Assembly (NCBI RefSeq): GCF_009176705.1
Contig: NZ_AP021846.1
Span: forward strand, 2,574,001 to 2,638,000
Direction of reading: 5' to 3'
DNA from: Pseudoalteromonas sp. A25
Lineage (GTDB): Bacteria; Pseudomonadota; Gammaproteobacteria; Enterobacterales; Alteromonadaceae
Length of the DNA stretch: 64,000 nucleotides
In this document: piece by piece, positions 49,091-51,808 of the stretch
How the letters are laid out: the number at the start of each line of letters is the position of its first letter
Position numbering within the stretch: position 1 is the first letter of the stretch
Translations under genes and position numbers: made by a program
The notes under the pieces: model-generated
What the model was told of the DNA's origin: nothing
The model's database searches: none
Seen by the model: the letters and a program-made list of their open reading frames with translations, nothing else

Positions 49091-49160
49091 ATTGTAACCA
49101 CCGCTGAGAGACTCTCAATTTCGGGTGGCGCTTCGCTTAACCGACCTACACAACCCGTAG

Positions 49161-49188
49161 GTTAAATAAGCCAAAGGCGCCATCTAAC
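49161..49188. repeat. REP-like palindrome copy 1
   Basis: GTTAAATAAG...CGCCATCTAAC, 28 bases, the imperfect arms GTTAAAT / ATCTAAC. One of five related copies between 49.1 and 51.9 kb. Confidence 0.65.
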
Positions 49189-49254
49189 AAAAATACAAGA
49201 CAGAGTCACAAACGTCGGGTGGCGCTTCGCTTAACCGACCTACATAACCCGTAG

Positions 49255-49282
49255 GTTAGATAAGCCAAAGTCGCCATCTAAC
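49255..49282. repeat. REP-like palindrome copy 2
   Basis: GTTAGAT / ATCTAAC arms 14 bases apart (AAGCCAAAGTCGCC between). Confidence 0.7.
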
Positions 49283-49455
49283 AAAAGTGCACAACACTTG
49301 CGACACGCTGTGAGTACACTTTTTACCCAAGGTGAAATGCACAAACCAACAGCTGCTAAAAAAGAACTAAGAGAGGAGGACTTAAAAAAGCTGGGCAGAC
49401 AGAACTCTGTATAATCGTTGCCAAAAAACACACTTCAAGCTTTTTAGCTGTAACC

Positions 49456-50022
49456 TTACGCTTCTTTCTCTTTGTTAAAATACGCCAAAGTCTGCCTAAT
49501 TGGATAAAGTGACATAGCAAACACAGAGACCAGATTAGAAACCCAAGTAACTGCTTTATACAGAACTTTCAATTCATGGTAATCATAATACCCCCTTGCA
49601 ATGAGCTGCATAAAAGAAACAGATATAGATACTAGTAGCATATACAAACAAGCTCTGGTTGAACCCGAAAATATGCACTCAGACAATTTATGGATAAGAA
49701 ATACGATGACAACATTAATAGTATTTATAGCCATCAATACTAGGTAAAAGGTTTTGATTTTACTATTTAAACCAAAGTCTAGCGTTAATAAATAGAATTC
49801 TAAAGAATCAACGACTACCCAAATCAAAAAAAAGCAAACCACAGTAATAAAACAAGAATACATTTCATGCTGCTGTAAAGACGTGATTTGCCCTTTCCTT
49901 GCAAAAAATAAACGCCAGCGATAGACAGGAAACTGAGTAACCAAAAACCACAGTATCAGCATTCCAATGTAGACTGAAATAGAAACAGTTAGCTGATTTA
50001 AAAACTCACTCAAATTACTCAA
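49456..50022 (-). CDS. Unrecognised five-helix membrane protein, array copy A
   Basis: A 188-residue integral membrane protein with five predicted helices (about 15-35, 53-73, 90-110, 122-142, 152-172). After helix 1 is the conserved basic segment YRWRLFFARKGQITSLQQHE, and the C-terminus is MSLYPIRQTLAYFNKEKEA. It is the distal copy of three tandem paralogues (A, B, C) with an exact 824-base spacing of starts. The start is TTG, with GAGAG about 10 bases upstream. The middle of the protein differs from B and C; the ends are nearly fixed. No known family recognised, so no function is proposed. Confidence 0.75.
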   Translation of the reverse strand: MSNLSEFLNQLTVSISVYIGMLILWFLVTQFPVYRWRLFFARKGQITSLQQHEMYSCFITVVCFFLIWVVVDSLEFYLLTLDFGLNSKIKTFYLVLMAINTINVVIVFLIHKLSECIFSGSTRACLYMLLVSISVSFMQLIARGYYDYHELKVLYKAVTWVSNLVSVFAMSLYPIRQTLAYFNKEKEA

Positions 50023-50159
50023 AACTAACGACTCTCATTGATTAACTTGGCAAGCAATATAACACTTGAGCATTGCCTTTGTGGTGTATTTTACTTATAA
50101 AAAGTACAACGAGGCATGTGTGCTTTTACGCTATAATCTATCTATGTAACTCACCGTAG

Positions 50160-50187
50160 GTTAGATAAGCCGACCGCGCCATCTAAC
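50160..50187. repeat. REP-like palindrome copy 3, in the A-B spacer
   Basis: GTTAGAT / ATCTAAC arms with AAGCCGACCGCGCC between. It lies in a spacer (50023-50273) almost identical to the B-C spacer. Confidence 0.7.
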
Positions 50188-50273
50188 GCTGTGCAAAACA
50201 GTTTATCAGCAGCAAACACATTTACGATTGCCAAGGGCTACTCTGTCGTTACACAAAAATTTACTCAAGCTCT

Positions 50274-50846
50274 TTAGTCTTTCGCTTCTTTCTCTTTGTT
50301 AAAATACGCCAAAGTCTGCCTAATTGGATAAAGTGACATGGCTGATATTGCAATTAAAATTGCCAACCAAATACCTAGAGAATAAGCATTGTTAAACCCA
50401 TGAAAATTAACGTAACCTCTGGCGCCTAATTGTAAAAAAAACAAAGACATTACCAACAAAGTCGCATATAAGCATATGCGCGACGCTTTCGAAAACAAGC
50501 AGCTTCGTAGTTCATGTACAACGAAAATCATAGTTATTAGTGCGGTGTTAATTACTATGCCCGATAGATAAAAAACCTTTATTCGACTATTCATACCTGA
50601 GTCGAACATCAACAAATATGGTGTCATTAAGTCATTCGTAAAACGCACCATAAGAAAACAAACCGAGGTAATAAAACCAGAGTATATTTCATGTTCCTGT
50701 AAAGACGTGATTTGCCCTTTCTTTGCAAAAAATAAACGCCACCGATACACAGGAAGCTGCGTAACCAAAAACCAAAACACAATGAGTCCAATATAAATAT
50801 CGACGATATTACCTAATCGGCTCAAAAGTTCATTCAAAGGGCTCAA
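50274..50846 (-). CDS. Unrecognised five-helix membrane protein, array copy B
   Basis: A 190-residue paralogue of A and C with the same five-helix plan, basic YRWRLFFAKKGQITSLQEHE segment after helix 1, and C-terminus AMSLYPIRQTLAYFNKEKEAKD. Compared with A and C it has clearly different sequence between about residues 70 and 160 (for example ARGYVNFHGFNNAYSLGIW). The start is TTG, 824 bases from the start of A. The last 60 bases of coding DNA are almost identical in all three copies, as are the flanking spacers. Confidence 0.75.
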   Translation of the reverse strand: MSPLNELLSRLGNIVDIYIGLIVFWFLVTQLPVYRWRLFFAKKGQITSLQEHEIYSGFITSVCFLMVRFTNDLMTPYLLMFDSGMNSRIKVFYLSGIVINTALITMIFVVHELRSCLFSKASRICLYATLLVMSLFFLQLGARGYVNFHGFNNAYSLGIWLAILIAISAMSLYPIRQTLAYFNKEKEAKD

Positions 50847-50983
50847 AACTAACGACTCTCATTGATTAACTTGGCAAGCAATATAACACTTGAGCATTGC
50901 CTTTGTGGTGTATTTTACTTATAAAAAGTACAACGAGGCATGTGTGCTTTTACGCTATAATCTATCTATGTAACTCACCGTAG

Positions 50984-51011
50984 GTTAGATAAGCCAAAGG
51001 CGCCATCTAAC
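50984..51011. repeat. REP-like palindrome copy 4, in the B-C spacer
   Basis: GTTAGAT / ATCTAAC arms with AAGCCAAAGGCGCC between. It is the same place in the spacer as copy 3. Confidence 0.7.
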
Positions 51012-51103
51012 GCACTGCAAAAAAGTTTATCAGCAGCAAACACATTTACGATTGCCAAGGGCTACTCTGTCGTTACACAAAAATTTACTCAAGCTCTTTA
51101 ACC

Positions 51104-51670
51104 TTAGGCTTCTTTCTCTTTGTTAAAATACGCCAAAGTTTGCCTAATTGGATAAAGTGACATGGCAGCAGTTGCAATTAAAATGCTCATTAAAACACCT
51201 GTTTTATAGATAACCTTCAGCTCATGATAAGAGAAGTAACCTCTTGCAATGAGCTGCATAAATAATAACGACAAAACGATTAATATTGAATAAAAACAAA
51301 CGCGAGTTGAAGCGGAGAACAAACACTTCCTCAATCGATGATTAATAAATATGACTAAAATAAGCATAGAACTCATGGCTAGATGAGATAGATAAAACAC
51401 TTTGACTTTCCCATAAAGCTCAAAATCTAGACTAAGTAAGTAGTGCTCCATCTCACCACCAAAATGGCGAAATATAACAAACCAGAAAACAGTCATGAAA
51501 CAAGAATACAGCTCATGTTGCTTTAGAGATTGAATTTGCTCTCCTCTAGCAAATAACAACCTCCAGCTACATTGCCTAAAATAAACAACCAAAAACCAAA
51601 GTAGAATAAGTGTCAGATAGCCATTAATAATGGCTGCAAGTTCATTTAATAGCTCAGATAATGGGCTCAA
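51104..51670 (-). CDS. Unrecognised five-helix membrane protein, array copy C
   Basis: A 188-residue paralogue of A and B, first in the direction of transcription. It has the most different N-terminal third (VVYFRQCSWRLLFARGEQIQ instead of the YRWRLFFA segment) and a C-terminus close to A (SYHELKVIYKTGV, AMSLYPIRQTLAYFNKEKEA). Start TTG at 51670, 824 bases before the B start. The DNA upstream of its start does not match the B-C and A-B spacers, so it is the outer end of the array. No terminator or Shine-Dalgarno beyond GAGAA was found. Confidence 0.75.
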   Translation of the reverse strand: MSPLSELLNELAAIINGYLTLILLWFLVVYFRQCSWRLLFARGEQIQSLKQHELYSCFMTVFWFVIFRHFGGEMEHYLLSLDFELYGKVKVFYLSHLAMSSMLILVIFINHRLRKCLFSASTRVCFYSILIVLSLLFMQLIARGYFSYHELKVIYKTGVLMSILIATAAMSLYPIRQTLAYFNKEKEA

Positions 51671-51780
51671 GATTAGTTATTCTCATTTTTGACTTCTACA
51701 CTCAATCTATCATTTAAACACGACCAGTAAAATAACTCCCTCCAAAGATGCACCTCAAAAAAGTACACACCAACCCCTAG

Positions 51781-51808
51781 GTTAGACAAGCCGACCGCGC
51801 CATCTAAC
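51781..51808. repeat. REP-like palindrome copy 5
   Basis: GTTAGAC / ATCTAAC arms (one arm base changed) with AAGCCGACCGCGCC between. It lies just upstream of array copy C. Confidence 0.65.

Follow-up and report, generated by a model that had tools for sequence, protein, structure and literature searches.

How can three neighbouring genes differ clearly in their middles when the non-coding DNA between them, and their 3′ coding ends, are almost identical? The question is raised by a tandem array in the window, by which is meant the 64,000-nucleotide stretch of the Pseudoalteromonas sp. A25 genome analysed here (GCF_009176705.1, contig NZ_AP021846.1, positions 2,574,001 to 2,638,000). An earlier note on this DNA offered three suggestions, namely gene conversion between spacers, cassette exchange, and diversifying selection on the protein middles.

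Organization of the tandem array

The array harbors three genes of one family on the reverse strand, as judged from the open reading frame list and trees. Gene C (51104–51670, 188 aa) is the first in the direction of transcription, followed by gene B (50274–50846, 190 aa), the most divergent copy, and gene A (49456–50022, 188 aa), a predicted membrane protein for which hydropathy suggests five helices. Trees and hydropathy identify gene A as the orthologue of gene L056:3974 of Pseudoalteromonas sp. CIP111854. The start points of A, B, and C (50022, 50846, and 51670) lie exactly 824 bp apart, as the earlier note had stated. B exceeds A and C by two codons (KD) and the spacer below it is 6 bp shorter (251 vs 257 bp), such that the exact period reflects units without insertions or deletions. 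Beyond the array, similarity between the outer flanks is limited to short stretches, and the 238-aa gene flanking it is present in four of the eight genomes searched for a closer relative and absent from genome G035.

Identity between units is concentrated in three zones. At an offset of 824 bp, blocks score 57 (49459–49515), 57 (49844–49950), and 270 (50018–50342), compared with a maximum of 29 when the match vector was shuffled 1000 times. The largest block (reverse strand) comprises the 3′ end of B, the spacer, and the start of A, and is equal to 50842–51166 at 314 of 325 positions. Within it, the spacer between B and A (50023–50273) matches the spacer between C and B (50847–51103, both reverse strand) at 245 of 251 unit positions. 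The second block, common to A and B at about codons 25–60, equals 50668–50774 at 97 of 107 positions and is a putative conversion tract. The third is the 3′ coding end of A, identical to B over 57/57 positions; A and C agree at 63/65 positions over 49451–49515. Across coding bases 501–567, 61–62 of 67 positions are equal in all three gene pairs. In contrast, the gene middles (coding bases 191–500) agree at only 154, 182, and 166 of 310 positions (50–59% identity), so that coding and spacer identities are far from equal. The earlier description of few spacer differences, matching coding ends, and clearly different protein middles is thus accurate in coordinates and substance, although it missed the internal A–B block.

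Crossed relationships with an orthologue

The array is syntenic with locus L056 of CIP111854, where the flanking proteins are 80–90% identical. The dS of neighboring genes ranges from 1.4 to saturation between the two genomes and from 0.26 to 0.67 between the window's genome and S16_S37. The earlier note proposed a comparison with orthologues, which, made here with another species, yields opposite answers for the two parts of gene A. Compared with its CIP111854 orthologue, the synonymous difference of A is 0.44 in the middle and 0.65 in the last 22 codons; compared with B, it is 0.79 and 0.13, respectively. The middle of A is therefore nearer to the CIP111854 gene and its end nearer to B, and the relationships cross (Fisher p 1.4e-5 and 0.0078, on rounded counts). 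In the last 22 codons, copies within the genome differ at 0.13–0.26 of synonymous sites versus 0.54–0.73 against CIP111854; paralogues are nearer than the orthologue, the mark of concerted evolution. The A–C middle difference, 0.59, is not far above the 0.44 between A and the CIP111854 gene.

In trees, A joins the CIP111854 gene and not B or C, with support of 100/88 for the whole protein and 98/90 for the middle only. However, a single clade of A, B, and C is not rejected (AU p 0.28 for the whole protein and 0.40 for the middle), so the argument that the window genes are older than the species split depends on these support values and on the synonymous distances.

A second array in the same genome

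At E < 1e-3, the genome encodes 14 members of the family, located in three arrays and two single places. Array II contains six genes (C1:687913–691621), and its spacers are 92–100% alike in all 10 pairs. Its genes have dS values of 0.93–2.4 in 13 of 15 pairs, the remaining pairs (2–3 and 5–6) being recent copies. This array is syntenic with loci of S16_S37, P. caenipelagi, and CIP111854. A single clade of its genes is rejected for all six (AU p 1.8e-4), for genes 2–6 (2.1e-5), and for the middles of genes 2–6 alone (3.9e-6). Array II spacers are 80–84% alike to the S16_S37 spacer, with an additional 11–21 gap columns, and nearby intergenic stretches differ by 4–21% between the two species. Spacer 1 differs from the other array II spacers by 6–8%. 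Recent homogenization in array II thus appears clearest for spacers 2–5. Upstream of array II is an open reading frame that looks integrase-like by eye (L009:3462–4514); it has no counterpart among the flanking frames shared with S16_S37.

The third array, of three genes (C1:2778737–2780669), shows no spacer similarity. Across 19 distinct multi-gene loci, obtained from 21 by removing two duplicates, the pattern is found in four, being strong in two, partial in two, and absent in the rest. The partial cases are site III of CIP111854, where 92 bp after the stop codon are 95% alike and the genes 69%, and genes 2–3 of locus L131, where 225 bp upstream are 94% alike and the genes 86%. At site III (L058:3983–5545), the common 3′ flank of about 92 bp of the two divergent family genes carries a different repeat.

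An exchanged internal segment

Mosaic tracts, a further mark of concerted evolution, were sought with a custom-written GENECONV-like test that uses 10000 site permutations and takes no account of protein constraint on the conserved segment. The A–B tract covers bases 85–148, with agreement at 26 of 31 polymorphic sites. In array II, tracts are found between genes 4 and 6 (bases 84–150, 25/26 sites) and genes 2 and 6 (bases 78–150, 23/29 sites). None of these three scores was reached in 10000 permutations. Weaker tracts are seen for A–C and B–C (324 and 30 of 10000 permutations), and the test finds no tract between genes 4 and 5 or 2 and 4 of array II.

In array II, genes 5 and 6 show 0/71 synonymous differences in the middle and 11.8/17 in the segment, in which gene 6 is the same as gene 4 (0/15.7 synonymous differences). 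In the sequence itself (L009:7444–8625), the two genes are near-identical save for about 70 bp. Of 47 sampled genes, none comes close to the gene 5 segment (best 67%), which may be an import or stem from a lost copy. The internal segment, at about codons 29–52, was exchanged in both arrays. It corresponds to codons 28–49 in the numbering of the script and to about 31–52 of B. Located between predicted helices one and two, it contains a conserved W..LF...HE..S motif. The homology common to the segment may make exchange easier there.

Recombination between copies as the best explanation

The three identity zones, the synonymously saturated middles, the crossed orthologue relationships, the mosaic tracts, and the second array together favor one reading, to which a probability of roughly 0.78 is assigned: recombination between tandem copies, by gene conversion or unequal crossover, homogenized the spacers and ends surrounding older genes. 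On this reading, homologous recombination among the three tandem, paralogous membrane-protein genes would recently have made the spacers, the 3′ ends of the coding sequences, and a single short internal segment alike, whereas the gene middles would keep an older divergence under purifying selection. The enzymology is probably RecA-type recombination, and a direction of copying between units is likewise presumed. Over most of their length the genes may be too diverged to recombine, with exchange confined to the remaining islands of identity. Gene conversion between spacers is accordingly the best supported of the earlier note's three suggestions, on the strength of the crossed relationships, the mosaic tracts, and the second array.

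Cassette exchange, the second suggestion, has partial support for the short segment at about codons 29–52. In its larger form it remains a rival in which a gene with its spacer, for example B, arrived from another strain by crossover in the spacer, leaving near-identical spacers around a divergent gene. Consistent with such an arrival, B sits on the longest branch among the three genes and has no close relative in 43 tree rows, gene number varies among species at syntenic sites (six, three, and one found at site II), and the gene 5 segment of array II indicates that imports or lost copies do occur. Yet B falls inside the clade of A, C, and the CIP111854 gene (100/100), the A–B internal tract would demand an additional exchange, and array II would demand several such insertions, which leaves the arrival of a whole unit rather unlikely.

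The mechanism of recombination between copies is ordinary; the outline of the locus is unusual, and its family is unnamed and phage-linked. The locus is a clear-cut example of homogenized non-coding DNA and gene ends next to older coding middles that differ. With two such arrays in a single genome and orthologues for comparison, one could measure how long the tracts are and how much identity recombination requires.

Spacers and palindromes

Near-identity of the spacers could also reflect purifying selection on a required regulatory sequence or RNA unable to change, an idea to which the presence of a palindrome in every spacer and the position of each spacer before a gene lend some appeal. However, upstream of C the similarity to the spacers extends over only about 60 bp, at roughly half identity, and the orthologous array of CIP111854 has a spacer unrelated to those of the window. 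A structured RNA was rejected as a candidate with no Rfam match at E up to 1, and promoter-like sites in the spacers number 6 versus 7.5 expected. The palindrome as a terminator or functional hairpin was likewise discarded, the predicted RNA folds being unexceptional (z-scores between −1.69 and 1.09). Such constraint is very improbable. The spacer as a mobile element was ruled out because the genome contains no further full-length copy; its six other matches are palindrome cores of 32–34 bp. All six differences between the spacers fall at unit positions 648–675 (28 bp), in or just beside the palindrome.

The palindromes have a GTAG head and resemble REP elements. On the forward strand, they occupy 50156–50187 in the B–A spacer, 50980–51011 in the C–B spacer, and, with 2 mismatches, 51777–51808 upstream of C. 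Below A, two REP-like palindromes in opposite orientation form a BIME-like pair (49121–49188), and a second such pair lies 94 bp further (49215–49282). The second palindrome type of these pairs (49121–49282) occurs nowhere else in the genome. The GTAG-headed palindrome is found in both window spacers, in the outer flanks of the window array, and in four spacers of the six-gene array, and it occurs in 6 of 36 other genomes searched, with one to three matches each. The palindromes fit REP elements carried along by array duplication.

Divergence of the gene middles

Were the duplication recent, with selection diversifying the protein middles, as the third suggestion would have it, the 35–42% of nonsynonymous sites at which the middles of A, B, and C differ would be accounted for. 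The synonymous sites of the same middles, however, differ at 0.59–0.79 (59–79%), which protein selection does not cause. The spacers differ at 6/251 positions versus synonymous differences of about 90/131 (B–C) and 80/132 (A–B). Over whole genes, dS/dN is 1.24/0.38 for A–B, 1.00/0.39 for A–C, and 1.88/0.41 for B–C, giving dN/dS of about 0.31, 0.39, and 0.22; in no pair does dN exceed dS. Even in the recent pair of genes 2 and 3 in array II, dN is 0.019 compared with a dS of 0.076. The middles of A, B, and C are old, with synonymous divergence near saturation and not accelerated protein change. Because dN over whole genes is below dS and synonymous sites are near saturation, diversifying selection fails to explain the pattern and is scarcely credible here.

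Near-identical repeats are prone to misassembly, and the earlier note allowed for a collapse, but an artefact is very unlikely, since the genome comprises two contigs and is rated 100% complete, three clearly different genes separate the repeats, and an independent array has the same pattern.

The protein family and its phage relatives

The family has no match reaching the cut-off in Pfam or, for three proteins, in NCBIfam; PHROGs and PADLOC match 0 of 22 members, and PDB sequences give a single match at E 1.8. No match was obtained among 24 genomes of other genera, and all 38 loci retrieved from a bacterial and archaeal species collection by two peptide patterns belong to Pseudoalteromonas. 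Within this genus, 36 of 108 genomes, including that of the window, have a family match at E up to 1e-6. Within the collections searched, the family is found only in Pseudoalteromonas and its phages. A single phage-type member searched against plasmids gave no match.

One branch is distinguished by a small downstream partner gene, present for 27 of 104 distinct family proteins. An opposite-strand Xre-type gene lies within 4 kb in 20 of these 27 loci, the other seven of which end before 3.4 kb, and in none of the 77 unpartnered members, many of which also have short flanks. Four Xre-type proteins were scanned, and all match the phage regulator family phrog_147. Loci L097:157–2520, L080:3893–6480, and L087:3337–5331 show the trio of family gene, partner, and opposite-strand Xre-type (phrog_147) gene; in P. 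luteoviolacea (L087), the trio sits between genes reading like recR and htpG. In the window's own genome, locus L012 has partner-like frames on both sides, beyond the distance limit. The window array consists of family genes only, with neither downstream partner nor opposite-strand Xre-type gene. A toxin–immunity array was considered and rejected, as the flanking frames in this genome, read by eye, include no obvious toxin.

Relatives are also carried by temperate phages of Pseudoalteromonas, five phage records encoding one (C5a twice, ACA1, ACA2, and proACA1-A). In these, the relative is gp6, followed by gp7, between an integrase or SOS-protease and the immunity repressor. In the Peduoviridae phages C5a (L141:3759–4655) and ACA1 (L142:2870–3766), gp6 and then a 114-codon partner are seen near the repressor. 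Over 165 aa, gene A and C5a gp6 share 30% identity (E 2e-24, profile probability 99.9), and the homology covers most of the protein. A word search found no mention of gp6 or gp7 in the main text of the ACA1 paper (PMC10612066).

The genome position of gp6 near the repressor suggests a role in lysogeny, such as exclusion. The array proteins are, tentatively, phage-linked membrane proteins, perhaps of the superinfection-exclusion type. A more speculative and distinctly unlikely extension is that the arrays are host repertoires of a membrane exclusion (immunity) protein shared with phages; the homogenized spacers, ends, and codon 29–52 segment would then act as recombination anchors that shuffle units and segments within an array and import others from other strains or prophages, letting the repertoire track the phages. 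A functional phage link would tie recombination in tandem arrays to phage–host conflict in an abundant marine genus. A non-exhaustive literature search found no description of the family; the process is known, and what appears new is the family together with its link to phages.

Comparison with known systems

Integron cassette arrays repeat a gene and a short palindrome head to tail, and the core order of attC is RYYYAAC...GTTRRRY. The window units likewise repeat a gene and a short palindrome head to tail. In contrast, read directly, the window palindromes do not have the attC core order but its reverse, GTTAGAT...ATCTAAC, and the homology of the window spacers runs into coding sequence.

REP elements and BIMEs share with the window a GTAG head, an imperfect palindrome, a position downstream of genes, and paired inverted copies (PMC2817692, PMC3733652). 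RAYT-associated REP elements have a high copy number, over 100 (PMC2817692). Here, only 15 matches to the searched form occur genome-wide when up to 2 mismatches are allowed, and two arrays of the gene family account for 9. No palindrome copy lies beside the Y1_Tnp gene of this genome, nor do inverted copies flank it as a cognate rayt within 583000–595000. These two differences make for a poor fit to a typical RAYT-driven family.

The gp6–gp7 module of C5a and ACA1 encodes a homologue of the window proteins. Unlike the window genes, the phage copies are single, directly followed by the 114-codon partner, and near an immunity repressor; both partner and repressor are missing from the window array.

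The window array also resembles the concerted evolution of tandem arrays described in prokaryotes (PMC6053082), Trypanosoma brucei (PMC1855330), and Caenorhabditis paralogues (PMC3966223). There, too, stretches of paralogues in one genome are closer to each other than to the orthologue, copies are chimaeric, and the outermost flanks differ. Unlike the arrays described there, most of each gene here keeps a near-saturated synonymous divergence, and it is the spacers and ends that are homogenized.
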